31,679 bases of DNA, taken from the NCBI GenBank assembly GCA_018260755.1, contig JAGTWP010000003.1:11803-43481 (forward strand), read 5' to 3'. Source of the DNA: Candidatus Altarchaeum sp. (GTDB lineage: Archaea > Altiarchaeota > Altiarchaeia > Altiarchaeales > Altiarchaeaceae). The notes beneath the pieces were generated by a model. That model ran no database searches and was not told the DNA's origin. It saw only the letters and a list, made by a program, of their open reading frames with translations. The position numbers and the translations under genes are program-made. Below, piece by piece: positions 10,065-27,737 of this stretch (within the stretch, counting starts at the first letter, position 1; every line of letters begins with the position of its first letter).

Positions 10065-11150
10065 TCAAAACACATACGCAATTATTCCCGCAATGGCTAA
10101 ATTTATCAAAGCAAGAAATATCAGATATTTCCACCCTAAATTTAATACCTGATCAATCCTAAATCTCGGCAAAGTTCCCCTGAGCCATATTGCTATATAC
10201 ACCAAAGTAAATGTTTTAGCTAAAAACCAGAATAATTCTGAGATTGCTTCTGGAACAACAGGAATATCAAACAAGCCATTCCACCCTCCCAAAAACAACA
10301 ATGTAATCAAAGCCGAGCCCACAAACAATTCCAAATATTCCGCAAGATAAAAGAATGCAAATCTCATTCCGCTATATTCAATATGGAATCCCGCAATTAA
10401 TTCGCTTTCCGCCTCAATCGTATCAAAAGGAACTCTGCTCATTTCCGCAATTGTTGCAACAAAAAATACAAACAACCCTAACAACAAAGGAATAGCAAAC
10501 CATAAATTTTGCTGGGCATTAACTATATCAATCATATTCATACTTCCTGCAAGCACAACAACACTCAAAGCGACAATGAGCATCGGGATTTCATAAGCCA
10601 TCATTTGTGCGGCAGACCTCATTGAACTAATCAATGAATACTTATTTCCCGAACCGTAACCCGCAATAACCATTCCGAGCGATGATATTGAGCCAAAAGC
10701 AATTAGCAAAAGTAATCCGACTCCTACATTTGCAAAAGATAAGAATTCATTAAAGGGAATTAGTACAAGCGTTAAAAGCACAGGGATAAAAACAAGAATA
10801 GGTGAGATAAAGTAAAGCAATTTGTCCCTGTTTTTTGGCTTTATGTCTTCTTTGAATATCAGTTTCATTACATCTGCAAGCGGTTGAAGTATTCCGTGGG
10901 GGCCTGCCACCATAGGTCCCAGTCGGATTTGAACATCTGCCAAAATTTTTCTTTCAAGATAAGTGAGGAGTAGCACAAGGACAGCAGCGACTACAAATAA
11001 TATAATTCCGGCACCTGTATAAACAAGCAAAGAGGATAAATTTTCCTGAATGCCAAAATTTTGCAGTGTTTTGATTCCGACATCAATTGCATTTCCTGTT
11101 TTGATTCCGACATCAATTGCATTTCCCTGAAATAAATTTAATGTTTCCAT
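10065..11150 (-). CDS. nuoH: Complex I-like membrane subunit NuoH/FpoH
   Basis: 361 residues, about eight membrane helices. Signatures: TYLERKILADVQIRLGP, GILQPLADVMKLIFKED, AEMSRVPFDTIEAESELIAGFHIEYSG and the late WLRGTLPRFRIDQVLNLGWK. This subunit holds part of the quinone/methanophenazine cavity and links the hydrophilic arm to the antiporter-like subunits. It is the last gene of the operon, 48 bp after nuoCD. The N-terminus contains a duplicated decapeptide (GNAIDVGIKT twice) from a 30-bp tandem repeat, before the first membrane helix. The true start could be downstream of this. Confidence 0.95.
   Translation of the reverse strand: METLNLFQGNAIDVGIKTGNAIDVGIKTLQNFGIQENLSSLLVYTGAGIILFVVAAVLVLLLTYLERKILADVQIRLGPMVAGPHGILQPLADVMKLIFKEDIKPKNRDKLLYFISPILVFIPVLLTLVLIPFNEFLSFANVGVGLLLLIAFGSISSLGMVIAGYGSGNKYSLISSMRSAAQMMAYEIPMLIVALSVVVLAGSMNMIDIVNAQQNLWFAIPLLLGLFVFFVATIAEMSRVPFDTIEAESELIAGFHIEYSGMRFAFFYLAEYLELFVGSALITLLFLGGWNGLFDIPVVPEAISELFWFLAKTFTLVYIAIWLRGTLPRFRIDQVLNLGWKYLIFLALINLAIAGIIAYVF
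11067..11126. repeat. 30-bp perfect tandem duplication in nuoH 5' end
   Basis: The unit starting TGTTTTGATTCCGACATCAA (30 bp) occurs twice without a mismatch, at 11067-11096 and 11097-11126. It keeps frame and duplicates ten residues. Absence of mismatches suggests a recent event. Confidence 0.92.
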
Positions 11151-11198: not shown

Positions 11199-13199
11199 TT
11201 ATCTGTCAACACATCCCATTACAGGGTCAATAGTTCCGCTTATTGCAACAACATCCGCAACATAATTATTTTCGCACATCTTTGGTAAAGCGGATAAATT
11301 TGAAAATGAAGGAGACCTTATCTTAAGGCGATATGGTTTTGGTTTTCCGTCGCTAACGATAAAAATTCCCATCTCTCCTTTTGCATGTTCAATCTTTTCA
11401 TAAACACTTCCCTTTGGAGGAATGATCATTCTCGGAACCTTTGCTATTATTTCTCCTTCTTTTACTGAATTTAGCATATCCATCCCCTGCTTAATAATTT
11501 TTAATGATTCCTCTATTTCATTCATCCTGACCATATACCTTGAAAAATTATCTCCCTCATTGAATACTGGAACATTAAATTTAAATTGAGCATACATTGA
11601 ATACGGCTCATCCTTTCTTACATCGTAATTAACACCGCTTGCTCTTAGCATAGGTCCCGTAACCCCAAAATTAATTGCATCTTCTTTTTTTAATATTCCG
11701 ATATTTTTTGTCCTTGCTAAAAAAATTTCATTTCCCGTAATCAAATTGTGATATTCCTTCATATGTGCGGGCATCATGTCTATAAATTTATAAATTTTTT
11801 TTGCGATGCTTTCATTAATGTCCTTTTTAACTCCCCCTACACACATATAATTAAACATCATTCTCGCCCTGCTTACATCCTCAAAAATTTCCAGAATTTT
11901 CTCTCTGTCGTTAAATCCGTAAAAGAAAGGGGTTGTTGCTCCCAAATCCATACACCATGTTGTGAACCATATTATGTGGCTTGCTATTCTGTTTAACTCT
12001 GCAACAATAACTCTTATTATCTGTGCCCTTTCGGGAATCTCAATATTCATTAATTTTTCCATTGCCAGAACATAAGGAAATTCGTTCAGCATTGATGCAA
12101 CATAATCCAAACGATCCATATAAGGGACAATTTGGTTGTAATTTAAACTTTCACAAACTTTTTCAATTCCTCTATGCAAATAACCGATTACAGGCTCAAT
12201 TTTAATCATCCTTTCACCATCTATTATCATCCTTAACCTCAAAACACCGTGTGTTGAAGGATGATGAGGCCCTACATTCAAATGCATAATTTTTGTTTGA
12301 TAGGTTCTTCCTTCTTGTCCTTCGCTTTCAATAAATTTATCAACTGTTAATTCGTCCTTCGTTGCCTCAAAGTCGCTGCTTAGTGAGATTTCCTGTTCTT
12401 TGTTGCATGGATATGATTTAAGTAAAGGATAACCTTTAAATTCCGCAGGAAGCAAAATTCGCCTTAAATTTTTATGTCCTTCAAAATTTATACCAAACAT
12501 ATCAAATGTCTCACGCTCATGCCAGCCAGCTGATCTAAAAATTTCAGTCAATGTTGGAACAGCAAAATTTTCATCAGAAGAAATTTTTTCTGTCTCTGTT
12601 TCCGTCTTTTTTTCTGTCTCTGTGTTCTGCTCTAATGTTTTAATTTTATTTATTTTAATTTTATTTATCGCCTTAAAAAGTTCCAAAATTTTTATCTTTT
12701 TCGGGCATTTTTCCTGACATAATCCACAGATTGCACAGTTGGAAATTTGTTTCGGGTTTATGTTTTTATTTTGCTTCAGACCGAGAATAACTGATTTAAC
12801 ATCAACGCTATTAACACAGACCTTGTTGCACAATCCGCATCCCAAGCACAATCCATAGTCATTAATACCTTCGGCAATTATTTCAGTAGGAGAGATTAAA
12901 ATTTCCGTCTCGCTTTTTGTCTCGCCTGTTTTTGGTTTATTCTTGTTTAATTTAATCTTGAGCGGAATAAAATTTTTTTGTGTATATGAATGAAGCAAAT
13001 AAACAACCTCTAATTCATTTAATTTATCAACTGCTGTCACAAAGGACAAATGTTCATAGCCCTTTTCCTTTAAAAATTTAACGAGCGGCTGTAAATTTTT
13101 ATCATTCGCAACAATGTATTTTAATGCTCCGTCTTCTTCAAGAGCAATTTCTTTTATTCCTGCATTATCCTTTATTTCGGTAAAAATTTCATCAATCAT
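11199..13199 (-). CDS. nuoCD: Fused NuoC-NuoD subunit with an inserted 2x[4Fe-4S] ferredoxin domain
   Basis: 666 residues. Residues 1-90 are the first part of NuoC (HLSFVTAVDK, ELEVVYLLHSY). Residues about 91-212 are an insertion with two CxxCxxCxxxC motifs: C118/C121/C124/C128 (CLGCGLCNKVC) and C155/C158/C161/C165 (CAICGLCQEKCPK). A Thr/Glu/Lys low-complexity linker (about 193-205) follows. NuoC resumes at FRSAGWHERETFDMFGI (221-237) and ends at YPLLKSYP. NuoD follows from about 300, with HLNVGPHHPSTHGVLRL and the C-terminal DPVMGCVDR. NuoC-NuoD fusions are common, but I know of no ferredoxin inserted inside NuoC. Frame is continuous, so this is a real fusion. It may help bring electrons from ferredoxin, since NuoEFG and FpoF are absent. 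Confidence 0.93.
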   Translation of the reverse strand: MIDEIFTEIKDNAGIKEIALEEDGALKYIVANDKNLQPLVKFLKEKGYEHLSFVTAVDKLNELEVVYLLHSYTQKNFIPLKIKLNKNKPKTGETKSETEILISPTEIIAEGINDYGLCLGCGLCNKVCVNSVDVKSVILGLKQNKNINPKQISNCAICGLCQEKCPKKIKILELFKAINKIKINKIKTLEQNTETEKKTETETEKISSDENFAVPTLTEIFRSAGWHERETFDMFGINFEGHKNLRRILLPAEFKGYPLLKSYPCNKEQEISLSSDFEATKDELTVDKFIESEGQEGRTYQTKIMHLNVGPHHPSTHGVLRLRMIIDGERMIKIEPVIGYLHRGIEKVCESLNYNQIVPYMDRLDYVASMLNEFPYVLAMEKLMNIEIPERAQIIRVIVAELNRIASHIIWFTTWCMDLGATTPFFYGFNDREKILEIFEDVSRARMMFNYMCVGGVKKDINESIAKKIYKFIDMMPAHMKEYHNLITGNEIFLARTKNIGILKKEDAINFGVTGPMLRASGVNYDVRKDEPYSMYAQFKFNVPVFNEGDNFSRYMVRMNEIEESLKIIKQGMDMLNSVKEGEIIAKVPRMIIPPKGSVYEKIEHAKGEMGIFIVSDGKPKPYRLKIRSPSFSNLSALPKMCENNYVADVVAISGTIDPVMGCVDR

Positions 13200-13424: not shown

Positions 13425-13937
13425 TTACTTTTTATTTAACATTCCTTTAATTTTCTCAGTAAGCAATTTTTCCTGTGCTATCTTTTCCCTTAATTTTATT
13501 ATTCCATCAAGTAATGCCTCTGGTTTCGGCGGACATCCCGGAACATAAACATCAACGGGAATAATTTTATCAACACCTTTAACAACAGCATAAGAATTCA
13601 CAAAAGGACCTCCGCTTGTCGCACATGCTCCCATGGCGATAACATACTTCGGAGAAGGCATTTGTTCATAAAGTCGCCTGACCCTCGGGGCCATTTTATG
13701 CGTTACCGTTCCCGCAACAAACATTAAATCAGCTTGTCTCGGAGACGGTCTGAAGACCTCCATCCCAAATCTCGCAATATCATTGTCTGCTGCTGCCGTA
13801 CTCATCATTTCTATCGCACAGCATGCTAATCCAAAGGTTAATGGCCATACCGAATTCAGCCGCCCCCAGCTTAAAATTTTATCTGTAAATTCAAACACCT
13901 TTTCTGTTTTTCCAAATAAAACATTTAATTTATCCAT
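13425..13937 (-). CDS. nuoB: Complex I-like subunit NuoB/FpoB
   Basis: About 170 residues from ATG 13937. An upstream ATG at 13982 would overlap nuoA by 38 bp and add 15 residues unlike the family, so I prefer the inner start, 7 bp after nuoA. The four N2-cluster cysteines are present: [10 protein letters not shown] (two), [11 protein letters not shown] and [12 protein letters not shown]. NuoB passes electrons from the NuoI clusters to the quinone or methanophenazine site formed with NuoD and NuoH. Confidence 0.95.
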
Positions 13938-13944
13938 CTTAAAT

Positions 13945-14334
13945 TTAGTCAGTCCATTTGAGGAATTTTTTATTGAGCACATATATCAATGAGAGCAATA
14001 TTAAACCAATAAACAGCATCGCCTCCATATATCCTATAACACCTAAATTTGTGAATTCAACCGCCCAGGGAAATAAAAAGATAGCTTCAACATCAAATAC
14101 GACAAACATTAAAGCATAGATATAATATTTGAAGGAAATATTGAAAAATTTTGTATCTCCTACGGCAATTTCTCCGCATTCGTAGGTCTCATATTTTCCA
14201 CCTGCATTTTTTTTATCCCTTTCTTCTACCCTTAAAGCCCTCCATATACCCTCCATAGTAAGCAAAGCAATGAGAATTCCGACAACACCAATAACAACAA
14301 TTCCGATATATGCAGTTATATTGTCAGCGACCAT
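13945..14334 (-). CDS. nuoA: Complex I-like subunit NuoA/FpoA
   Basis: 129 residues, three membrane helices. The conserved loop with YECGE and the helix [15 protein letters not shown] identify it. It begins a second block A-B-CD-H inside the operon, 134 bp after nuoN; that spacer is AT-rich with no gene seen and might hold an internal promoter. Confidence 0.95.
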
Positions 14335-14468: not shown

Positions 14469-16031
14469 TTAACTCACACCAAGCGAATGAACAATATTTG
14501 TGCAAATTTCAACGAATGGAGGGGCATAGAATAAAATGAGCAATGCAATTACCGCAATTAACATTGGAATTACAAATGCGATCGGTTCTTTAAATTTCTC
14601 AAATTTTACTTCAATGTGTTCGTTATGTCCGTTATTTTTGTTGTGTTCGTTATGCTCACCATGTTCATCACTCTTATGTTCCATTCCTTCCGGCTCAACA
14701 AACCACATATATTTTATCAGTCGTCCGTAATAATACAGAGAGATAACTGATGTTATTATCATTACAACACCCAAAATCAAAGCAAGCATATTTTCCTGCA
14801 TTGCCTGAACGAACAATTCAACCAAAATCAGAATTTTTGCCGTAAAGCCACCGAAAGGAACAATTCCCGCAAGTGAAAGCATAAATGCAGCCATAGCAAA
14901 GGCAGTAATCGGAGCGGTTCTCCACAATCCTTTGTAATCATCATAATTTTTAATTTTTCCGTCCGAAACAAAAAGTAAAGTTCCTGCGGCAATAAAGGCT
15001 CCGCCTTTCATAAACGCATGAACAATAATATAATATATTGCATAAGCGATTCCCAGCGGAGTAAATATTGCTATTGCAGCAAGAATATATCCTACCTGCG
15101 CAATTGATGAATATGCGAGCATCTTTCGAACATCCTTTTGTGCCAAAGCCAGCACATTTCCGACGAACATTGAAAGTATAGCAAGTATTGCGAGCATTAC
15201 ACTTAACTCAAATTTAAATAACACTATAAAAACCACCAAAATTTTGAGCAGGGCAACAAATGCCATCTTTTTTGATGCGCCCGCGAGCAAAGCAGAAACA
15301 GGAGAAGGAGCGCCCTGATAAGCATCGGGTGCCCAGAAATGGAACGGAGCGGCACTCATTTCATACGCCAATCCCAGCACTATTGCCAAAATCCCGATAA
15401 ATGTTAATAACTTTAAATTTTCATCTCCGCCCTGATGTAAAATTCCACTCTGATCAAGCATCAAACTGCCTGTTGAAAAATATATTAATGAAATTCCGAA
15501 CAATAAAATTGCCGAAAATACCGCTCCGAATAAAAAATACTTTGCCGCACCTTCTATTCCCTTCTTTGTTTTTTCAATCGCAACCAGCACATAAGCAGGA
15601 ATTGCGGCCATTTCCAGCCCTACAAATAATGTCAATAAATCAGCTGCAGATGCAACAACGAGCATTCCGAGAATTGCGAAAAGTATTAAGGCATAATATG
15701 CGTCAAAAATTTTATCAGATATAAATTTTTCCGTGTATTTTAGCGATGCAATAACCGCCATCAGTCCGACGATGAGAAATATAAATTTAAATACAACTGC
15801 AAGCAATCCGACATTATAAAATATGCTTATTCCTTCGGCAATTGTAATTACTGCTATGCTATCCGCAGTTGTGTTTATGGACTGAATTGCAATCACAAAA
15901 AGCGAAATTAATGAAGCAACTATTCCAAGTAAGGCAATATAACCCGAAATTTTCTTAAATTTAAATCCTGTTAATAATATCAAGATTGCTGCAACCGCAA
16001 TAACTATCTCCGGAAGTATTAAATCGAGCAT
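14469..16031 (-). CDS. nuoN: Antiporter-like proton-pumping subunit NuoN/FpoN with a His-rich loop
   Basis: 520 residues, about 14 membrane helices. The N-terminus LPEIVIAVAAILILLTGF is typical of NuoN. The helix with FVGLEMAAIPAYVLVA holds the conserved glutamate; APFHFWAPDAYQGAPSPVSALLAGASKK and the following VRKMLAYSSIAQVGYIL match the family core with its lysines. It translocates ions in response to redox chemistry in the peripheral arm. Between the last two helices, residues about 449-472 form a hydrophilic loop with six histidines (EHKSDEHGEHNEHN and GHNEH), which is not usual and could bind metal. Confidence 0.93.
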   Translation of the reverse strand: MLDLILPEIVIAVAAILILLTGFKFKKISGYIALLGIVASLISLFVIAIQSINTTADSIAVITIAEGISIFYNVGLLAVVFKFIFLIVGLMAVIASLKYTEKFISDKIFDAYYALILFAILGMLVVASAADLLTLFVGLEMAAIPAYVLVAIEKTKKGIEGAAKYFLFGAVFSAILLFGISLIYFSTGSLMLDQSGILHQGGDENLKLLTFIGILAIVLGLAYEMSAAPFHFWAPDAYQGAPSPVSALLAGASKKMAFVALLKILVVFIVLFKFELSVMLAILAILSMFVGNVLALAQKDVRKMLAYSSIAQVGYILAAIAIFTPLGIAYAIYYIIVHAFMKGGAFIAAGTLLFVSDGKIKNYDDYKGLWRTAPITAFAMAAFMLSLAGIVPFGGFTAKILILVELFVQAMQENMLALILGVVMIITSVISLYYYGRLIKYMWFVEPEGMEHKSDEHGEHNEHNKNNGHNEHIEVKFEKFKEPIAFVIPMLIAVIALLILFYAPPFVEICTNIVHSLGVS

Positions 16032-16069: not shown

Positions 16070-17956
16070 TTATAATTTGATTAAGAAGACTAGAAATCCA
16101 ATTAATAAGAATAGTATTGCCATTGTTGTTGATGAAGTTATAAATTTATAGGCGGACTTGTCAAGTTCTCTCTCAATATCTTCAACATTTTTGCCTTTAA
16201 ATTTACTAATAGTATAAGCATAAGGAGCCAAGCTTAACTTAACTGCCCATTGATAAAACAAAAGTAAGCGGTGATTTAAAGATATACAGACCTTTGAAAG
16301 CGGATTTCCACCGTAAATAAAAGGTGTGTCAAATTTAATAATTTCCTTTCCTTTTGAACTTCCAAAATACCTGTAATTGAGCAATAAGAATAAAGCAATT
16401 ATGGCAAGAACAATATATTCTGCGGTTTCACTCCAGTGTTTTGAAATTTCCTCGCTAACCACATCTGCAACAGGCAGGACATGTGAAGGTGAAATTTTAA
16501 TTTCTGCTAAATTTAAGAATGGAAAAGGAACCACATAAAATACAACAACTAAAATTGCAACTACAACTATCGGCGCTAAAATTAAGATATTTACTTCCTT
16601 AAATTTTGCATATTCAATCTCATTCTCTTTCTTTGGTTTTTTGAAAAATGCTTTATAAATTATGGGGAAAAAATAAATTACATCAAGTAAGCCCGCCAGC
16701 AAAAAGACAATAAAAAATATCCAGTATCCGCTTGCGAAAGAACCCTCAAGTAACATTCCTTTACTCAAATATGCCAATGTCAGAGGTGTTGCTATCATAG
16801 CCAATGTTCCGACGGCAAAAGAAAGCATTGTTATAGGCATTCTTCTTCCGATTCCGTCTAAATCGCTGATAAGTTTTTTGTGTACGGCAACAAAAACAGC
16901 CCCTGCCACAAAGAACAACACTATTTTTCCAAACGAATGACTTGCTATGTGCAAAATTCCTCCTGTAAGTCCGCTTTTTGTTAATAACGCTACACCAAGC
17001 AGCATAAATGATAACTGACTAACAGTTGAATACGCAATCCTTCGCTTTAAATTATCCTGTGTAATTCCAAAGAATATTGCGGCAAGCAGGGTAAAAGCAG
17101 CAAAAATTCCCAGAACTATATCCAAATGCAATGTGTGCATTAAATTTGGCCCGAAAACATCAAAAACAGTTCGCATAATGCAGAATACACCTGCAACTAC
17201 AACCGCAACAGCATGCAATAAAGCAGAAACAGGGGTGGGAGCAACCATCGCTGCCGGAAGCCATGAATGAAGAGGAAATATTGCTGCTTTTGCATAACCA
17301 AACATAAGCATTAAAAATATTGCAGATAAAAGCATTGAACCGCCTTGTGCCAATCCTCCTATTCCTCCTTCACCGAATTCCATTGTTCCGGTAATTCCAT
17401 AAATAAGTAAAATTGCTGTAAGCTGCAAAAGCATTGACGCAACCATTAAATAAATCATATATTCGGTACCTGACCTCATTGATCGGCTATCTTCCTCGTG
17501 AATAACCAGAGGATAAGTCACGATTGATAAAATTTCATAAAAAATAAACAGGGTTATTAAATTTCCTGAAAAAGCGATTCCCAATGCGGCAAAAATTGAC
17601 AAAGTAAAATAGACAAAAAAACGCGTCTGTGCATGCTCCTTCAGTCCTCTCATATAGCCAATCGCATAAATGTTTGTTATAACCCATAATGTTGCGGTAA
17701 CAAATGCAAAAAACATTCCGAAAGCATCCAACTTCAAAGTAAATGCTATTCCGGGAGCAAATTCAAACAATTTCATAGTAATATTTTCTCCGTCCAATAT
17801 CGGAGGTAAAACCACAAATGCAACAAGCAAAAAGGTTATAATTGTTGCTATGACTGTAAGTCCATCTCTTAAATTCGGCTTATTCTTAAATAAAGGCAGC
17901 ATAAATGCCGCTATCAGTGAAGGCAGTAACGCATAAATTAAAATTTCTCCGTTCAT
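16070..17956 (-). CDS. nuoL: Antiporter-like subunit, NuoL position but MrpD-like
   Basis: About 628 residues from ATG 17956; the alternative TTG at 17962 adds two residues. The core reads LDAFGMFFAF, IGYMRGLKEHAQTRFFVYF, LFIFYEILSIVTYPLVIHEE (helix-5 glutamate), YAKAAIFPLHSWLPAAMVAPTPVSALLHAVAV (lysine and histidine) and LKRRIAYSTVSQLSFMLLG. The wording of these motifs is closer to Mrp-antiporter subunit D and related group 4 hydrogenase subunits than to NuoL or NuoM. A C-terminal extension (about 560-628) ends in one more helix, as in NuoL. It follows orf51 by 2 bp. No separate NuoM is present in the window, so the complex would have two antiporter-like subunits. Confidence 0.88.
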   Translation of the reverse strand: MNGEILIYALLPSLIAAFMLPLFKNKPNLRDGLTVIATIITFLLVAFVVLPPILDGENITMKLFEFAPGIAFTLKLDAFGMFFAFVTATLWVITNIYAIGYMRGLKEHAQTRFFVYFTLSIFAALGIAFSGNLITLFIFYEILSIVTYPLVIHEEDSRSMRSGTEYMIYLMVASMLLQLTAILLIYGITGTMEFGEGGIGGLAQGGSMLLSAIFLMLMFGYAKAAIFPLHSWLPAAMVAPTPVSALLHAVAVVVAGVFCIMRTVFDVFGPNLMHTLHLDIVLGIFAAFTLLAAIFFGITQDNLKRRIAYSTVSQLSFMLLGVALLTKSGLTGGILHIASHSFGKIVLFFVAGAVFVAVHKKLISDLDGIGRRMPITMLSFAVGTLAMIATPLTLAYLSKGMLLEGSFASGYWIFFIVFLLAGLLDVIYFFPIIYKAFFKKPKKENEIEYAKFKEVNILILAPIVVVAILVVVFYVVPFPFLNLAEIKISPSHVLPVADVVSEEISKHWSETAEYIVLAIIALFLLLNYRYFGSSKGKEIIKFDTPFIYGGNPLSKVCISLNHRLLLFYQWAVKLSLAPYAYTISKFKGKNVEDIERELDKSAYKFITSSTTMAILFLLIGFLVFLIKL

Positions 17957-17958
17957 TT

Positions 17959-18114
17959 TCAATAATTTTTGAGATTTTTATTTTGAAATTTCAAATAAGT
18001 AGTTGACGCCAATGTCCAATCTTCATTATCTGCTGACTTTATCCATTCAACATAAGGCCTTACAAAGTTTAGCCGTTCCTCTAAATTTTTATCTTTATTA
18101 AATTTTATCCCCAT
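17959..18114 (-). CDS. Small protein of 51 residues between nuoK and nuoL
   Basis: The frame runs from ATG 18114 to TGA at 17961-17959. It overlaps the nuoK 3' end by 17 bp and stops 2 bp before the nuoL start, so translational coupling on both sides argues that it is real. The protein is soluble and charged: MGIKFNKDKNLEERLNFV, then RPYVEWIKSADNEDW. It has no membrane helix or cysteines. The RLxFVxxxxEWxK pattern resembles small archaeal proteins of unknown function, from memory only. I do not recognise it as a known complex I subunit. Confidence 0.65.
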   Translation of the reverse strand: MGIKFNKDKNLEERLNFVRPYVEWIKSADNEDWTLASTTYLKFQNKNLKNY

Positions 18115-18415
18115 TTTTTAAATTTTCCATTAAATTGCTAATATCTATGTTTCCGAATTTTCTATAAATGATTATTGCTAATGCCAGTCCGACTGCAATC
18201 TCCGCAGCTGAAATTGCTATGATGAACATAACGAATGTTTGTCCCGAAGCATCGGCCATGAAAGATGCAATTGCCGTCAGATTTAAATTTACTCCGTTGA
18301 TTGCTATCTCAACGCACATCAAAAATTTTATGAAATTTTTCTGTGTCAATGTTCCTAATATTCCTATAAAAAATAAGAGCGTTCCGAGTATTAAATAATA
18401 AGTTATAGTTATCAT
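18098..18415 (-). CDS. nuoK: Complex I-like subunit NuoK/FpoK
   Basis: 105 residues, three membrane helices. Signatures: LIGILGTLTQKNFIKFLMCVEIAINGVNL (conserved glutamate in MCVEIAIN) and FVMFIIAISAAEIAVGLALAI (second glutamate). These glutamates belong to the ion pathway between NuoH and the antiporter-like subunits. The start lies 4 bp after the nuoJ2 stop. Confidence 0.95.
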   Translation of the reverse strand: MITITYYLILGTLLFFIGILGTLTQKNFIKFLMCVEIAINGVNLNLTAIASFMADASGQTFVMFIIAISAAEIAVGLALAIIIYRKFGNIDISNLMENLKNGDKI

Positions 18416-18419
18416 TTTG

Positions 18420-18686
18420 TTATCTTTTCGGATTTGTTTTTTCCGTATTTTCTTTATCTTTAAATACCAATATTATTGCTCCGATTACTGCTGCCGTTAA
18501 TAATAATCCGAGAACTTCAAACGGCAGTAAAAAATTTCCGAATAAATTTAATCCGATATTGTTTGCCGAAATTTCGCTGATTTTTGTTTCATCGCTTCCT
18601 ACATTCAAAAAAGCATTTGCGATAAGTATGAATAATACTATTCCTAACAATATGCCGAAAATTGAAATCGAACTATTAGCATTCAT
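18420..18686 (-). CDS. nuoJ2: NuoJ C-terminal half (NuoJ2/FpoJ2)
   Basis: 88 residues with two membrane helices: a signal-anchor-like helix at 8-27 and FEVLGLLLTAAVIGAIILVFKDK near the end, which matches the last helix of NuoJ. With nuoJ1 it makes a complete NuoJ split at the loop after helix 3. A split NuoJ is known in haloarchaea and other archaea. The two genes are 10 bp apart. Confidence 0.88.
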   Translation of the reverse strand: MNANSSISIFGILLGIVLFILIANAFLNVGSDETKISEISANNIGLNLFGNFLLPFEVLGLLLTAAVIGAIILVFKDKENTEKTNPKR

Positions 18687-18696
18687 CTTTTTATTT

Positions 18697-18963
18697 TTAT
18701 TTTAAATTTTTACCTTCTTCTTTATTTTCTTCACCTTTTATAAGCATTATCGCGAATAACATTAATACGATTACACCTCCTATATAAACCAAAATCTGAA
18801 CAGCGAAAAGGAAAAATGCCTTTAAGGATATATACAAAACCGCAATAGCCAAAAATGTCCCTGCCAGATATACCGCCGAATGCACAATATCTTTTGAAAT
18901 TATTACTGCAATCGAAAAAGCAATTGCCAATATTCCGAAAACAAAAAATAAAATTTCTTCCAT
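18697..18963 (-). CDS. nuoJ1: NuoJ N-terminal half (NuoJ1/FpoJ1)
   Basis: 88 residues with three membrane helices. The third contains FAVQILVYIGGVIVLMLFAIML, the pi-bulge helix signature of NuoJ. It ends in a charged tail. See nuoJ2 for the second half. Confidence 0.92.
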   Translation of the reverse strand: MEEILFFVFGILAIAFSIAVIISKDIVHSAVYLAGTFLAIAVLYISLKAFFLFAVQILVYIGGVIVLMLFAIMLIKGEENKEEGKNLK

Positions 18964-19006: not shown

Positions 19007-19414
19007 TTATTTGCGTCCGTTGCGGGAAATTCTATAAATTTCCCTTATTATATCAGTTAAAGATAATATCCCTCTCATTTCTTTGCTGTCATCTGTAACT
19101 ATCATGCGATGAATATGCCTGTTTTGCATTATCTCTCCTGCATCCTTAACTGATTTATTCATTTCAATAACTTCCGGTGGAGAATGCATTATCTCTGTAA
19201 CTTGGACATCCTCAAAATTTCTCCCGAATGCCTTCGGAATATCCACTTCCGAAACAACTCCTATAGGCTCACGCCTTTGATTTACAACAACAATTGCATG
19301 AACGCCCCCCTCAACTAAAATATTTACCACTTCTATAACACTTGTATTTTCGGGAACAGTAATTGCTCCGTAAGTCATTATATCTTTTACTTTTGTTTCC
19401 TCTATTCCTTTCAT
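19007..19414 (-). CDS. Two-CBS-domain protein inside the nuo operon
   Basis: 135 residues forming one CBS pair: VKDIMTYGAITVPENTSV-GVVSEVDIPKAFG and VTEIMHSPPEVIEMNKSV-GILSLTDIIREIYR. Such pairs (Bateman modules) bind adenosine nucleotides and regulate partner proteins. It has no other domain. It sits between nuoI and nuoJ1, so I infer a regulatory role on the complex or its synthesis. The first CBS domain is similar to those of the four-CBS protein at 22235, for example MTYGAITVPENT versus MHYGVITITEDT, so the two are paralogues. Confidence 0.85.
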   Translation of the reverse strand: MKGIEETKVKDIMTYGAITVPENTSVIEVVNILVEGGVHAIVVVNQRREPIGVVSEVDIPKAFGRNFEDVQVTEIMHSPPEVIEMNKSVKDAGEIMQNRHIHRMIVTDDSKEMRGILSLTDIIREIYRISRNGRK

Positions 19415-19462: not shown

Positions 19463-19837
19463 TTAATTTATTTTCCTTATTAATTTTTCTCTTGTGTAGT
19501 CAGCCATTTCATAAACATTTGTCAGGTGCATTGCATGTTTCGGGCAAATTTCTTCGCATAACCCACACCACATACAACTTCCGGTATTAACCATAAAATC
19601 ATAATCATCTGCATTTCTCGTCTTTTCACGGCCTGCTTTTTGTTCTATTTTGAGCGCATTAACAGGACAGCTTCTGGCACACATGCCGCAAACAATACAT
19701 TCCTTTGTATTGACTTTTTGTAGCCCTCTGTAAGGATGGTCTCTTCTTTCTTTTGGATATTGTAAAGTTACATTTTTCCTGAACAATGCCGTTTTTATTG
19801 TTACCCACAGGCCTTTGAGGATTCCTGTTATGAACAT
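19463..19837 (-). CDS. nuoI: Complex I-like 2x[4Fe-4S] subunit NuoI/FpoI
   Basis: 124 residues. Two cluster motifs, CIVCGMCARSCPV and CMWCGLCEEICPK, follow an N-terminal amphipathic segment and the VTLQYPKERRDHPYRGLQKV lead-in typical of NuoI. It carries electrons (N6a/N6b) to NuoB. It is the first gene of this operon, so the canonical I-to-N block precedes the A-to-H block. The tandem TATAATAATTA motifs at 19891-19933 upstream are candidate promoter elements. Confidence 0.94.
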   Translation of the reverse strand: MFITGILKGLWVTIKTALFRKNVTLQYPKERRDHPYRGLQKVNTKECIVCGMCARSCPVNALKIEQKAGREKTRNADDYDFMVNTGSCMWCGLCEEICPKHAMHLTNVYEMADYTREKLIRKIN

Positions 19838-20003: not shown

Positions 20004-20784
20004 ATTTAAACTATCAATTTTATAAATTCGGTAAATTTTTCACTTTTATCAGCACCAAAATTTACCTACTGCAATTATATTTAACGAAATTTAATTTATT
20101 AACATATTAATTTATTAATTTATTAATATATTAATATATTTATACTTATTCATAATATTTAAAACAAAATTATTATTTATTATTCCTTATTTTTATTATT
20201 TATTTTTATATGTGTTCATAATTAAATATGTTTAAAAATAATCACAGGATTAAACAAATTTAACAAAATAAAAAACAAACTTGATTAAACAAAAATTTAA
20301 ACTAATAAAATTTAAATAAATAACGTAACTACTCACCCGCCCAAAAAATTACAGGTAAATTTTTTGATTTTTTGTATTTTTTTGAAAGTTTTTCAGGTAT
20401 TAAAAAATATTTGAAATATTTTTTAAGATTGAAAATTTATTTATAAATTTTCAGTAAATTTTGTCAAACTGTGAGTAGTTACTAAATAACAAGCAATCAA
20501 AAATTTAAAATGGAACCCCAAATGCAAAAATTTGTTGAAGCGGTTGAAAAAGAACTAACCGCAGAAGATATTGACACAAGTATAGAAGGCTGTATCGGAT
20601 GCGGAAACTGTGGGCATGCCTGCCCGTGGTATATAGTGACAGATGATCCTAAATATCACCCGAAAACAAAAGCGGATGTCGTAAGGAAGGTATATAAAGC
20701 ATACATTGACCCTGCCGGAAAAATAATGGCAAACTTGGGATTGATTAAGAAACCAACTGTTAAGGATTTGGAAGATATGAGAGA
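19991..20784. repeat. Large direct duplication, copy 1 (hdrD promoter and 5' end, with MITE)
   Basis: Matches 26023-26650. Its length is 794 bp, and subtracting the 158-bp MITE and one 8-bp target duplication leaves 628 bp, exactly the length of copy 2, so no other indel is needed. The part before the ATG differs at only about two positions; the coding part differs at about eight. Confidence 0.93.
20325..20482. mobile_element. MITE copy B (158 bp, GTAACTACTCAC ends)
   Basis: Ends GTAACTACTCAC (20325-20336) and GTGAGTAGTTAC (20471-20482) are perfect inverted repeats. The 8-bp target duplication TAAATAAC flanks it at 20317-20324 and 20483-20490. The duplicated region at 26349-26356 has a single TAAATAAC with no element, which is the empty site. 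Inside are two hairpins (AAAAAATATTT-GAAATATTTTTT and GAAAATTTATTTATAAATTTTC) whose order is the reverse complement of those in copy C. Confidence 0.95.
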
Positions 20785-20812
20785 ATTTAAAAAATTAAAA
20801 TTAAAAAAATAA
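20510..20812 (+). CDS. Truncated HdrD-like protein: N-terminal [4Fe-4S] part only
   Basis: 100 residues. Residues 1-91 are nearly identical to the start of the full HdrD-like protein at 26376, including CIGCGNCGHACPW (C28, C31, C34, C38). After DMR the sequence changes to a short Lys-rich tail (EFKKLKLKK) and stops, so the second cluster and both CCG domains are absent. It begins a gene set with the NapH-like protein 10 bp downstream. It could be a remnant that delivers a promoter to napH, or a small one-cluster ferredoxin-like protein. Intact frame and few, mixed substitutions leave both possible. Confidence 0.7.
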   Translation: MEPQMQKFVEAVEKELTAEDIDTSIEGCIGCGNCGHACPWYIVTDDPKYHPKTKADVVRKVYKAYIDPAGKIMANLGLIKKPTVKDLEDMREFKKLKLKK

Positions 20813-20822
20813 AAAACGAAAA

Positions 20823-22211
20823 ATGAACTTGTTAAATATCTTGGGGGAAAATAAAAAACACCTTCCAACAATGCTCTGGGTGGCCCGTATTTTGAATATG
20901 ATAATAATAATTGCTCTGATTTATTTTGGATGGAATGTTTTTAGCGAAGATGTAAAATACACAAACCTGACGTCCTTTTTAATTTGGGTGGTCTGGTGGC
21001 CTATGATTATTTTTATGGTGGTTCTTGCCGGAAGATTATGGTGTACTATGTGTCATCTGAAATTAATTGCAGACGCCTTTGACGGTTTTGGATTAAAATT
21101 GAAGGTTCCCAAATGGCTCATGAAAAGAGGCACGACAATCGTATTAACAATGGTAATAGCGGTTTTTATTTTGCACTCTTCAGTAGAGAGCTACGGAGTA
21201 AACAACTTTGCATATCTTTCAGTGATATATCTGATAGTCCTTACGAGTTACGCTATAGTTATCGCATTAGTATTTGAAAGGCATACATTCTGCAAATACT
21301 TCTGCCCTTTAGTCGGATTTTTAGGAAACTACACCCGATGCGCTCCTACCGAATTAAGGTCTGCTGACCTCGATAAGTGCAAGACGTGCAGAGACAAGGA
21401 ATGCGTAAAGCACTGTCCGAATAAGCTGTACATGGGAACTATGGATTCGCAGCAGCAGGAAGGATGCCTTCTCTGCATGGAATGCGTAAAGCACTGTCCG
21501 AAAAACAACATAACTTTCCGCTTTAGAAATTTCTTTAAAGGGGTATGGGATTCGCCTAAAAGAAGCGTTGGAGGAACTTTTGCAGTTATAGTCGTATTCG
21601 GAATTTTAATAACAGAATTCGGGGAAAACTGGGAAATAGTACGGCAAACAATTACTTTTATTCCGAACGCACTTGCAGAATTAACAGGCGTTGAAAATAT
21701 CGCAGGATATAAGCTGTGGAAAAGCTTGTGGTTGTTTTTAGTAGAGCCGGCATTAATACTCGGAATTTGCGGAGCAGTAGCAATGATTATAGCACGAAAA
21801 GACAGCGCATGGAACTATGTTAAAATTTACGCTCTCGGTCTTCTTCCGATGCTTTTGAGTATGCATCTTACTAAGCACTTTATTAATGTTAACGAACATT
21901 TAGGTTATCTTCCATATGTCATTAAAGATCCTTCCGGAGCAGTTACAGCAGAGGCCATAAAATCAGGTATATTAACACCTCCAAGCCCTGTTCTTTTTTC
22001 GGGTAGTATTGAAGGTTTTGCTTTGATAATCTTTATAGGAGTATTCGGGATTTTAGGGTCGTTATATGCTACCTGGAAAATTTCAAAAGTAAATTTCGCG
22101 GATGACAAAAAGCAAGGTTTGTTTAGTGCTATTCCTTTCCTCCTGATGATAGTATTTCTTGGAGGTGTGTTTGCATTGACAATTTATAATTGGATGGTTG
22201 CGGTTTTATAA
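20823..22211 (+). CDS. NapH/NosR-like membrane protein with two [4Fe-4S] clusters
   Basis: 462 residues. Membrane helices lie at about 22-40, 52-70, 105-122 and 130-150, with more in the C-terminal half (about 240-255, 290-315, 330-350, 395-412, 437-458). CTMC (74-77) and CKYFCPLVG (157-165) match the CxxxCP motif of NapH/NosR/RdxA proteins. Two ferredoxin motifs follow: C186-C189-C194-C198 and C215-C218-C221-C225. The segment CVKHCP is repeated at 194 and 221, in a 14-bp DNA repeat. Family members pass electrons from the membrane pool to outside or inside reductases. The partner here is unknown; the truncated HdrD-like gene precedes it and a CBS protein follows. The long C-terminal membrane part is not in typical NapH. 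Confidence 0.75.
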   Translation: MNLLNILGENKKHLPTMLWVARILNMIIIIALIYFGWNVFSEDVKYTNLTSFLIWVVWWPMIIFMVVLAGRLWCTMCHLKLIADAFDGFGLKLKVPKWLMKRGTTIVLTMVIAVFILHSSVESYGVNNFAYLSVIYLIVLTSYAIVIALVFERHTFCKYFCPLVGFLGNYTRCAPTELRSADLDKCKTCRDKECVKHCPNKLYMGTMDSQQQEGCLLCMECVKHCPKNNITFRFRNFFKGVWDSPKRSVGGTFAVIVVFGILITEFGENWEIVRQTITFIPNALAELTGVENIAGYKLWKSLWLFLVEPALILGICGAVAMIIARKDSAWNYVKIYALGLLPMLLSMHLTKHFINVNEHLGYLPYVIKDPSGAVTAEAIKSGILTPPSPVLFSGSIEGFALIIFIGVFGILGSLYATWKISKVNFADDKKQGLFSAIPFLLMIVFLGGVFALTIYNWMVAVL

Positions 22212-23743: not shown

Positions 23744-25404
23744 GAATTGTAACGAAATAACTTAATCAATTTGGAATAATTTTATAGTTCCATTCTCCAT
23801 GAAACTCATCTTTTACAAAATTAATTTTTTTAAATTCATTATCTGTTACTCTTATTCCTATTTGATATTTATTTGTGTCTAATTCACATTTCACTTGCAA
23901 CCCTTTTTGCGTATTGGTGGAAGCAATCAGATTAACTACTACTTCATAGCTTATTAAAGGTTTACCTCGCCAATTTTTTGAAATATATGAAAATAAACGA
24001 TGTTCAATTTTATTCCATTTACTTGTAGCCGGTGGAAAATGACACACATATATTTCTAAACCTATTTCATCAGATAATTTTTGTAATTCGCTTTTCCACA
24101 ATCTACTTCTTGAACTATTACTTCCTCCGCCATCTGCTGTTATTAATAATTTTTTAGCATTGGGATAGCAAAGTTTACCCATTTTATTCCACCATCTTTT
24201 TATTGTTTCTGCAGCAAATTCCGCCGTATCATGGTCTATTCCTACACTAATCCACCCTTTATTTTGTAATAAATCATATACTCCATACAGTCTTGCTTCC
24301 CCTTTTGCGTCACTTAAAAAATCATATACTTTTACTTTTGTTGGTTCTTTTGATTTATGCCACTCTTTTCCATTATTTTTAAAATTACCTATTAGTTCTT
24401 TTTTCTTTGCATCTACTGATATTACTGGCTGATTTTCATGTTGAAAATTTTTTACTTTTTCGTGTATATATTCAAATTGTGCGTTCCTGTCAGGATGACT
24501 TTTTCCTTCATCTGTTTTACGATTTGCCTGTAAGCTAAAACCTTGCTCTTTTAATATCTGCCCAACTAATTTGTGGCTTGCACTATACCCTGTTTCTTTA
24601 AGTTCTGATGATAATTTACGTAGACTTTTGCTTGTCCACTGCAGTACAGAATCAGGATCACCTCTTACAGCAGGTTCTATCAAATCATTCAAGGCCTTTT
24701 TTATTTCAGGTATTTTTTCTACTGTTTTTTTTCTTCCACCTCCTTTTTTTCGTATTCTTCTTAAATCTACTTCCATAGGGTTTTGCAGTTCTCGCTGACC
24801 TGTTAAAATTGTTGTTTTTGATATTCCTGTTGCTTTCGCTACTTGACTAATACCTCCTTGGCCTAAAACTTTTGATTCGGCAGCACTCCACAATCTCCGC
24901 ATTTTTTCATTCATTAACGGATCTAATAATTTATAAAGTTTCTTTATTAGATTTATATTTTTCATATTGCAACTTTTCATAATTTCTAACTTTTTATTAA
25001 TTCTCTGCAATTCTTCTTGTGTCATTCTGCCAAAATAAAATATCGTATGATGTCTATTTTTACCATTTACCCTGTATGGCTCTACAAGAGAGTAATAATT
25101 ATGGTGGTGGCGTTTAACATACCAATTCATTTTCATTTTATATCTTGTATGGGTCGTAAAAAATATTATTAATTTATTAAATAATTATATGTAAAAGTAA
25201 TTAAATATACAATTAATATACCTAAATATTGGGTCGTAAAAAATATTTAAAAACCAACAAACAACAAAAATAGAAAAATACAGGCATTATGGCAATATTT
25301 CATTCCTTAATAATATCTAAAATTAATTATGAGTAGAGTAGAAAAGAAGAGTTTACAAAGAAAAAATATTTGTTATAAAGAAACAAGTTATTTTGCTACA
25401 ATGA
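23744..25404 (-). mobile_element. ISAzo13-type insertion sequence
   Basis: ATTGTAACGAAATAACTT (23746-23763) and AAGTTATTTTGCTACAAT (25385-25402) are inverted repeats matching at 16 of 18 positions. GACGTAG occurs on both sides (23737-23743 and 25403-25409), so the target duplication is 5-7 bp depending on where the ends are drawn. The element is about 1.66 kb and carries one transposase gene. A direct repeat GGGTCGTAAAAAATATT lies at 25151-25167 and 25231-25247, between the transposase start and the right end; it could be an operator or transposase-binding site. Confidence 0.88.
23766..25136 (-). CDS. ISAzo13-family transposase with an extra N-terminal domain
   Basis: 456 residues. The catalytic region matches ISAzo13 (Rhodopirellula-type DDE): SVDAKKKELIGNFKNNG (D242), LLITADGGGSNSSRSRLWK (D335) and TSKWNKIEHRLFSYISKNW (E378), with a helix-turn-helix at about 92-112 (GGISQVAKATGISKTTI). 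Residues 1-60 (YYSLVEPYRVNGK, TIFYFGRMTQEEL) look like the N-terminus of IS1634/IS4-group transposases, which I would not expect in this family. Full length and apparently intact, so the element may still be active. Confidence 0.9.
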   Translation of the reverse strand: MKMNWYVKRHHHNYYSLVEPYRVNGKNRHHTIFYFGRMTQEELQRINKKLEIMKSCNMKNINLIKKLYKLLDPLMNEKMRRLWSAAESKVLGQGGISQVAKATGISKTTILTGQRELQNPMEVDLRRIRKKGGGRKKTVEKIPEIKKALNDLIEPAVRGDPDSVLQWTSKSLRKLSSELKETGYSASHKLVGQILKEQGFSLQANRKTDEGKSHPDRNAQFEYIHEKVKNFQHENQPVISVDAKKKELIGNFKNNGKEWHKSKEPTKVKVYDFLSDAKGEARLYGVYDLLQNKGWISVGIDHDTAEFAAETIKRWWNKMGKLCYPNAKKLLITADGGGSNSSRSRLWKSELQKLSDEIGLEIYVCHFPPATSKWNKIEHRLFSYISKNWRGKPLISYEVVVNLIASTNTQKGLQVKCELDTNKYQIGIRVTDNEFKKINFVKDEFHGEWNYKIIPN

Positions 25405-26022: not shown

Positions 26023-26650
26023 ATTATTTATTAAAATTGAAACTATCAATTTTATAAATTCGGTAAATTTTTCGCTTTTATCAGCACCAAAATTTACCTA
26101 CTGCAATTATATTTAACGAAATTTAATTTATTAACATATTAATTTATTAATTTATTAATATATTAATATATTTATACTTATTCATAATATTTAAAACAAA
26201 ATTATTATTTATTATTCCTTATTTTTATTATTTATTTTTATATGTGTTCATAATTAAATATGTTTAAAAATAATCACAGGATTAAACAAATTTAACAAAA
26301 TAAAAAACAAACTTGATTAAACAAAAATTTAAACTAATAAAATTTAAATAAATAACAAGCAATCAAAAATTTAAAATGGAACCCCAAATGCAAAAATTTG
26401 TTGAAGCGGTTGAAAAAGAACTAACCGCAGAAGATATTGACACAAGTATAGAAGGCTGTATCGGATGCGGAAACTGTGGGCATGCCTGCCCGTGGTATAT
26501 GGTGACGAATGATCCTAAATATCACCCAAAAACAAGAGCGGATGTCGTAAGGAAGGTATATAAAGCATACATTGACCCTGTCGGAAAAATAAAGGCAAAC
26601 TTGGGGTTGATTAAGAAACCAACTGTTAAGGATTTGGAAGATATGAGAGA
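26023..26650. repeat. Large direct duplication, copy 2 (hdrD promoter and 5' end)
   Basis: Partner of 19991-20784, without the MITE. This copy belongs to the full-length hdrD-like gene. The left joint touches an ATPase gene fragment. Confidence 0.93.
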
Positions 26651-27737
26651 TGCTATGTGGACATGCACAACTTGCGGAAGATGCACTTTAGCATGTATGC
26701 AGGGGGTAAGCAACAGGCGACTGATAAGAATAGCGAGAACTGCTTATGACGCTGCAGGAATACAGCCACCGGTTGTCCAGAAAATTAAAAATGACTGCAT
26801 AGTTCATCATCATTCTTTTGGCTCAACAAAGGAGGAGGTTTTCGGAAGAGTTCTTCCAGTACTTCAAAAAGCAGGAGTACAGGTTTCAATAGATGTAGTC
26901 GGTGCTGAATATTTATGGAGTTGTTCTGCAATAGGAAATACAAAGGTCTATGAGACAGAAGCACCTATAATGGTAAGTATGCTAAATGCTATGGGTATAA
27001 ATTATACAGTAAGTTCCCAGATTGTTGATACCGGAACTGAAATGCAGGCGGTTGTCGGAAACAGAGCATTAACAAAACAATATTTGGAAAGAATTGAGGA
27101 ACAGGCAAAACGACTTCATGTCAAAGGAATACTTCTTCCGGAATGTGCCTGTGATATCAGAGAATTGATAGTTGAAGCAAGTGATGTTCTCGGAAGGCAA
27201 TTTGAATTTCCAATAGCGTATGTGGATACATTGGCCATAGATGCTATAAATAGTGGAAAAATACCTGTTGAAAAGGTTGAAATGACTGCAACATATCATG
27301 ATCCTTGCTGGACATCACGACTAACGGGCTATGTTGAGGAACCAAGGGATTTATTGAGAAAGGTTGTAACAAATTTTGTTGAAATGACTCCGAACAGAGA
27401 ATACAATTACTGCTGTAATGCAGGCGCAGGTCCTTTAAGAATGTTTCCGTCAAAAGAAGGGGAAATAAATTTAAGGCAAAAGGTCTCTATATTAAAAGCA
27501 AAACAAATTGAAGCAACAAACGCCGATGCTGTTTTAACATCCTGTGCAACATGTTATTTGAGTTTAAAGGATACTGTTAAGGTGTATGCTTTAAAAGCAA
27601 AAGCAGGATCACTTATATCTGTTGTTTATAAAGCAATGATGAAGGCATTGGCAAAGGAAGGAAAGACGGACATAGTAAAATTCCCGGTGAATTACGATAA
27701 AATTCCGGAATCATTCAGATATATTAAAAAGGCATAA
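26376..27737 (+). CDS. HdrD/DsrK-like iron-sulfur oxidoreductase
   Basis: 453 residues. An N-terminal ferredoxin part has two clusters (C28-C31-C34-C38, CIGCGNCGHACPW; C97-C100-C103-C107, CTTCGRCTLACMQ). Two CCG (DUF224) domains follow. The first is degenerate (WSCSAIG, LLPECACDI without the CC pair). The second is complete: HDPCW, YNYCCNAGAG, TSCATC. One intact CCG domain is typical of DsrK/TmcB-like members, while HdrD has two sites, so I call it HdrD-like without naming the substrate. By family it exchanges electrons between a thiol/disulfide or similar couple and its membrane partner, the cytochrome b gene 81 bp downstream. The start has no Shine-Dalgarno motif; ATTTAAAATGG precedes it. 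Confidence 0.88.
   Translation: MEPQMQKFVEAVEKELTAEDIDTSIEGCIGCGNCGHACPWYMVTNDPKYHPKTRADVVRKVYKAYIDPVGKIKANLGLIKKPTVKDLEDMRDAMWTCTTCGRCTLACMQGVSNRRLIRIARTAYDAAGIQPPVVQKIKNDCIVHHHSFGSTKEEVFGRVLPVLQKAGVQVSIDVVGAEYLWSCSAIGNTKVYETEAPIMVSMLNAMGINYTVSSQIVDTGTEMQAVVGNRALTKQYLERIEEQAKRLHVKGILLPECACDIRELIVEASDVLGRQFEFPIAYVDTLAIDAINSGKIPVEKVEMTATYHDPCWTSRLTGYVEEPRDLLRKVVTNFVEMTPNREYNYCCNAGAGPLRMFPSKEGEINLRQKVSILKAKQIEATNADAVLTSCATCYLSLKDTVKVYALKAKAGSLISVVYKAMMKALAKEGKTDIVKFPVNYDKIPESFRYIKKA

Follow-up and report, generated by a model that had tools for sequence, protein, structure and literature searches.

For many anaerobes, it has yet to be established how electrons are supplied to a complex I that has no NADH module. 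In cyanobacterial NDH-1, the counterpart of NuoC is NdhJ. Ferredoxin docks on NDH-1 at N6a beside NdhO, which contacts NdhJ (PMC7021789), and Fpo without FpoF accepts electrons from ferredoxin (PMC12918732). For the 11-subunit complex I, whose donor is still being sought, a search for one donor shared by all was unsuccessful, and CODH and ferredoxins are among the co-expressed donor candidates in D. hafniense (PMC11238625). In the solved CODH alpha subunit of M. barkeri, clusters E and F are proposed to hand electrons to ferredoxin-like proteins, and Inoue et al. assigned to group A-5 those CODHs in which E and F are separated by two additional Cys4 motifs, for which electron transfer was suggested (PMC6344411). 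Altarchaeum and its relatives are uncultured archaea of the deep subsurface. In the Altarchaeum locus described here, a cluster-bearing module of the kind found in the carbon-fixing CODH/ACS appears to sit in complex I itself, which points to a specific kind of donor.

The window, that is, the whole stretch of 31,679 nucleotides analysed, covers bases 11803-43481 of contig C27 (43,481 bases) in an archaeal genome of 1.3 Mb that is 85% complete (G000). Of the named genomes, Candidatus Altarchaeum HURL_140 (L033) provided the best full-length relative. NuoA, B, C, D, H, I, J and K and the antiporter subunits all have profile matches in G000 (Table 1). The subunit in the nuoL position scored 535 bits with the MrpD-type model PRK08375 and about 221-223 bits with the NuoL models of NCBIfam, and the genomes G000, G002 and G003 each encode two antiporter-like subunits rather than three distinct L, M and N subunits, with three found in G001. 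The CBS-domain protein is a possible regulator of complex I, and a CBS-like frame occupies the same place between nuoI and nuoJ in G012, G002 and G003. Elsewhere in the window, a DsrK/HdrD-like Fe-S protein is present as a full copy (26376-27737) and as a truncated second copy of its N-terminus (20510-20812), the first ~90 residues being nearly identical; between them lie a NapH-like membrane protein (20823-22211) and an ISAzo13-type transposase (23766-25136). A DsrK-like gene also adjoins complex I in G012 (L116 14013-15368).

Table 1. Complex I genes in the window and parts of the NuoCD fusion (positions are those of the window)
Feature	Position	Strand	Basis
nuoH	10065..11150	(-)	PF00146 match at G000:C27:21894-22808
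nuoCD fusion, 666 aa	11199..13199	(-)	Open frame; PF00329 split by insert; PF00346; NuoD equivalogs
NuoC N-terminal part, aa 1-90	12930..13199	(-)	PF00329; pLDDT 91-96 at aa 1-80, 74 at aa 81-90
Inserted segment, aa 91-212 (122 aa)	12564..12929	(-)	Present in G003, G026, G012
Ferredoxin module core, aa 105-180	12660..12887	(-)	8 Cys conserved in four genomes; best match CdhA module
Motif 1, CLGCGLCNKVC (C118, C121, C124, C128)	12816..12848	(-)	
Motif 2, CAICGLCQEKC (C155, C158, C161, C165)	12705..12737	(-)	
NuoC C-terminal part, aa 212-290, end approximate	12330..12566	(-)	PF00329, best stretch 205-268
NuoD part, aa 301-666	11202..12299	(-)	PF00346; NCBIfam NuoD from aa 301-305
nuoB	13425..13982	(-)	PF01058; CC, GACA and PGCPP in sequence, as for cluster N2
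nuoA	13945..14334	(-)	PF00507
nuoN	14469..16031	(-)	PF00361; TIGR01770 is top NCBIfam match
Antiporter-like subunit in nuoL position, closest to MrpD-type models	16070..17962	(-)	PF00361; NCBIfam PRK08375
nuoK	18098..18415	(-)	PF00420
nuoJ, second half	18420..18686	(-)	PF00499, profile positions 72-146
nuoJ, first half	18697..18963	(-)	PF00499, profile positions 2-69
CBS-domain protein between nuoI and nuoJ	19007..19414	(-)	PF00571
nuoI, separate gene, both cluster motifs present	19463..19837	(-)	Fer4 models; TIGR01971

The NuoD part scored 521 bits with the NCBIfam NuoD model and 348 bits with the FpoD exception model, which has a cut-off of 600. By eye, it contains GPHHPSTHG and NYNQIVPYMDRLDY, with the quinone-site His and Tyr, and has no CxxC pair at its two ends, so that the cysteines of a hydrogenase NiFe site are absent. 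Judged from the sequences of NuoB, NuoD and NuoH, the complex is a complex I of the kind without an NADH module. Its identity as an Fpo complex was rejected, as an FpoC/FpoD-type core was not found and NuoD is nearer the bacterial NuoD models. No match to the NuoF family (PF01512) was obtained in G000, nor in G001, G002, G003 or G012. Two FrhB/FpoF-family (PF04432) proteins are encoded in G000, and an FpoF elsewhere in this genome was rejected because both genes adjoin polysaccharide pyruvyl-transferase-like genes. The earlier note had stated that NuoEFG and FpoF are lacking; this agrees with the result for NuoF, the subunit of NuoEFG that was searched for in this 85% complete genome, and with a context of the FrhB-family genes unlike that of FpoF.

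The nuoCD frame is open through all its codons, as the earlier note had it, and joins NuoC and NuoD in one chain. The Pfam match to Complex1_30kDa is split in two by matches to Fe-S dicluster models and is followed by Complex1_49kDa, which bears out the two-cluster domain proposed within NuoC, and the eight cysteines were mapped to two CxxCxxCxxxC motifs as described. Even one such motif arose in just 167 of 200,000 shuffles of the insert, and the motifs are thus not a product of chance. The GC content is 33.1% in the insert and 33.8% in the remaining nuoCD. Alignment to the insert-free congener G002 places the extra segment at about aa 104-207, and the loop carrying it lies between the NuoC strand ending in KIKL and the stretch VPTLTEIF. 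NuoC had been thought to restart at SAGWHERE, but homology puts the restart at about aa 212 (FAVPTLTEIF, window position ~12566). The AlphaFold model of NuoCD gave Aquifex and E. coli NuoCD as top Foldseek matches (TM 0.70-0.84), and a well-predicted NuoC strand (residues 76-83) and helix (from residue 224) flank the insert of about 120 residues. The insert itself had a pLDDT of about 36-72 per ten residues within NuoCD and a mean of 45 when folded alone, with helices predicted at 134-142 and 171-199 at low confidence.

Among the 29 genomes of the class examined, a NuoC-family protein was found in 13. The insert occurs with all eight cysteines at the same place of NuoCD in G003, which belongs to the same genus, and in G012 and G026, which belong to two other families, so that the recurrence for which the earlier note had asked was observed in four Altiarchaeia genomes of three families. 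The occurrence of the same fusion and insert in three independent genomes excludes a frame error joining two genes, and a chimeric contig was rejected on the same grounds. The insert is absent from 74 other NuoC frames, which were found by a conserved motif in fetched loci outside the four insert-bearing genomes, and the literature searched contained no account of a dicluster insertion within NuoC. Between G000 and G003, the module core showed a dN of 0.18 and a dS of 0.79 (dN/dS ~0.23), and the C-terminal linker of the insert was just 35% identical; by these sequence comparisons, purifying selection acts on the core, and the linkers vary far more freely.

The earlier note had described the insert as a two-cluster ferredoxin domain; it is not a generic ferredoxin, and what it resembles most is the extra module of the CODH/ACS alpha subunit (CdhA) of Altiarchaeia. 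With a profile of nothing but the four NuoC inserts, the altiarchaeal CdhA modules scored 55-69 bits and all others in the fetched set no more than 42 bits, the canonical CdhA of G016 reaching 42 bits and the remaining non-module proteins scoring lower. When the insert was used as a single query, the CdhA modules scored ~37-47 bits, the canonical CdhA of G016 31.8 bits and other Fe-S proteins ~26.5 bits or less. With the NuoC and NuoD models set aside, the lowest NCBIfam E-value for the insert was that of cdhA TIGR00314 in its E/F region (8e-7), closely followed by NuoI at 1.6e-6, and the Pfam match to Fer4_17 was above its cut-off. A NuoI-type or generic bacterial ferredoxin was rejected, as NuoI scores well under the CdhA modules; HdrC was rejected as the source, being weaker than CdhA in every profile comparison, and one tree placed it beside the inserts at a support of 43/76, on a long branch. 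The insert belongs to the alpha-helical HdrC/CdhA type and not to the NuoI type.

The CdhA of G000 aligns to the solved CODH alpha subunit over 8-415 and 722-1063, with an insertion of roughly 300 aa between the E and F motifs in which the module lies, and it has four C4 motifs versus two in methanogens. The amino-acid identity of the NuoC module to the CdhA modules is about 31-42%. Trees on 77 columns had bootstrap values of 43-68 at the nodes bearing on the descent of the NuoC insert and the CdhA module, and the NuoC inserts formed one clade weakly (68/66); the kinship is therefore drawn from the profile scores. The insert is best explained as a two-[4Fe-4S] module like the one that forms part of the Altiarchaeia CODH/ACS alpha subunit, and we infer that the modules of NuoC and CdhA share a common descent. 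The CODH/ACS genes of G000 (C27:1679-11128), upstream of the window on its contig, comprise two CdhA paralogues and CdhE-like and CdhD-like genes, and a RACo-like activator, also upstream there, extends into the window start (1-1841). In G003, the contig of the CODH genes also encodes a 250-aa Fe-S protein and a large protein that has a Tat-like leader and is similar to a formate dehydrogenase alpha subunit (L252 6721-10693).

The congener G002 keeps nuoA, B, CD, H and I, the CBS gene, two J frames, K, an L-type antiporter and N, and its NuoC passes straight through the loop. Since this similar gene set is kept without the module, the insert is not essential to complex I, and G002 offers a natural insert-free control for testing the donor. 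Its CdhA1 (836 aa) has motifs 1 and 4 only and retains the remnant ETVRVERERKGMKDGIKFLTKDE, the helix found after motif 3 in its relatives being still in place, and this flanking remnant shows that the module was lost; in its CdhA2 (645 aa), motifs 2, 3 and 4 are gone. Loss rather than original absence is also the simpler reading for NuoC, though it is not proved, because the three Altarchaeum genomes (G000, G002 and G003) form a trichotomy on NuoB+NuoCD+NuoH. Among genomes with both NuoC and CdhA, the module and the insert are both present in four and both absent in one, the joint absence thus coming from a single lineage and a fragmented assembly (260 contigs, 87% complete). In G011, G014, G017 and G027, NuoC has no insert and no full CdhA match was found. 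The CdhA module is present in G022 and G023 (73-75% complete), where neither NuoC nor NuoH was detected, and it thus serves CODH independently of complex I.

The insert is best read from its sequence as having an electron-input or docking role. The presence of the module in both NuoC and CdhA, and its absence from both in one relative, suggests a shared electron port. We therefore propose, with a probability of about one half, that the NuoC insert may serve as an electron port for a ferredoxin-type partner shared with CODH/ACS, replacing NuoEFG or FpoF. The module would have come to sit in the NuoC loop in the ancestor of three Altiarchaeia families. As no NuoF was found and the FrhB-family genes stand in a non-FpoF context, N6a in NuoI would be exposed as the entry, by analogy with cyanobacterial NDH-1; the NuoC module could extend this entry and make it specific for the CODH-serving partner. 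A reduced ferredoxin-type partner, also serving CODH/ACS, would dock on the module, and electrons would cross its two clusters to N6a-N6b in NuoI, then to N2 in NuoB and to a quinone-type acceptor. Oxidation of CO or acetyl-CoA may feed electrons into the membrane in this direction, or the flow may be reverse, with an ion gradient driving low-potential electrons to CODH/ACS for CO2 fixation. Fe-S cluster assembly in the insert, electron transfer through it, its partner and the direction of flow are all presumed in this proposal.

Several observations weigh against such a port. Complex I is kept in G002 without the module, which suggests that the module is an additional port and not an indispensable part of the chain, and the ferredoxin of NDH-1 docks at NuoI/NuoD without such a module (PMC7021789). 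G022 and G023 have CdhA modules with NuoC and NuoH undetected, the joint absence comes from one lineage, the tree supports are low, the AlphaFold model of the insert is not confident and no single ferredoxin was shown to follow the module. A 61-aa two-cluster ferredoxin is encoded in G000 (L261 5139-5321) between RibH-like and Alba-like genes, near a PorB-like gene, and also in G001 and G003; it was undetected in G002, where the Alba-like neighbour is missing too, so this may be an assembly gap. We consider it unlikely that the proposal can be widened to an exchange of electrons between CODH/ACS and complex I through their similar modules, possibly within one assembly and without NAD(P)H, F420 or hydrogenase, CO or acetyl-CoA oxidation then driving ion pumping or a gradient driving CO2 reduction.

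That G002 retains the other parts of the complex but not the module would also fit an insert off the main electron path: a structural or stabilising element, an electron buffer or a redox sensor on the surface freed by the absence of NuoG. The long variable linkers suggest a mobile domain, and the G-loop of E. coli is an example of a surface insertion that stabilises the peripheral arm (PMC8357420). However, all eight cysteines are invariant and the core has a dN/dS of ~0.23 while the C-terminal linker is just 35% identical, and a stabiliser would not be expected to be missing together with the CdhA module, which leaves this reading doubtful. It is distinctly unlikely that the NuoC and CdhA modules dock mutually, so that CODH/ACS binds complex I with no diffusible ferredoxin. 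Similar modules in both enzymes, both absent in G002, would agree with such contact, as would the distance of ~8-10 kb between the two gene sets on one contig in G000; these sets are, however, on different contigs or far apart in G002, G003 and G012, and CdhA modules occur where complex I is undetected. To our knowledge, self-association of such dicluster modules has not been described.

The trichotomy and the weak clade of NuoC inserts would also allow separate entries of the module into NuoC in Altarchaeum and in the other families, G002 never having had it. We find this improbable, as all insert-bearing NuoC proteins carry it in the same loop, the inserts are closer to each other than to any CdhA module in the profile built from inserts, CdhA1 of G002, at least, has demonstrably lost the module, and the NuoC of G002 retains TKTEI, like KTEI at the insert border in G003. 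That the three-gene absence in G002 is an artefact of assembly or binning, so that the link between the modules of NuoC and CdhA would be exaggerated, is highly improbable despite the fragmented metagenome assembly and the similarity of modules within a genome, for the NuoC and CdhA1 gaps are in frame with the domain aligning on both sides, the borders in CdhA2 differ with motif 4 also lost, two contigs are involved, CdhA1 retains module-flanking residues, and the identity between NuoC and CdhA modules is too low for repeat collapse.

With the electron port as the preferred reading, the locus may be set beside the described systems. HdrC shares with the insert the motif type and a helix after the second motif, with a PDB match of 5e-5, and differs in being a separate subunit of lower similarity to the insert than the CdhA module. 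The Cdh-type CODHs of group A-5 contain a similar dicluster module, the best profile match to the NuoC insert; here the host is the CODH alpha subunit, and the main text of that study neither mentions Altiarchaeia nor connects the motif with complex I (PMC6344411). The ferredoxin:plastoquinone NDH-1 is likewise a complex I without NuoEFG, ferredoxin-fed at N6a (PMC7021789). The Fpo of Methanothrix is an archaeal complex I-type enzyme without its input subunit FpoF, in an organism with CODH/ACS, and reduced ferredoxin supplies its electrons (PMC12918732); unlike it, Altarchaeum has a NuoD nearer bacterial NuoD than FpoD, and the insert was found only in Altiarchaeia among the fetched NuoC frames. 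The 11-subunit complex I-like enzymes, e.g. that of Desulfitobacterium, share with the Altarchaeum complex the NuoABCDHIJKN core, in which no NuoF was found, the quinone-site and N2 residues in sequence, and a donor that is not known (PMC11238625). The Altarchaeum complex departs from these enzymes in the fusion of NuoC with NuoD, in its two antiporter-like subunits, of which one is nearer MrpD models than NuoL, in a CBS-domain gene within its operon and in the two-cluster module of NuoC.
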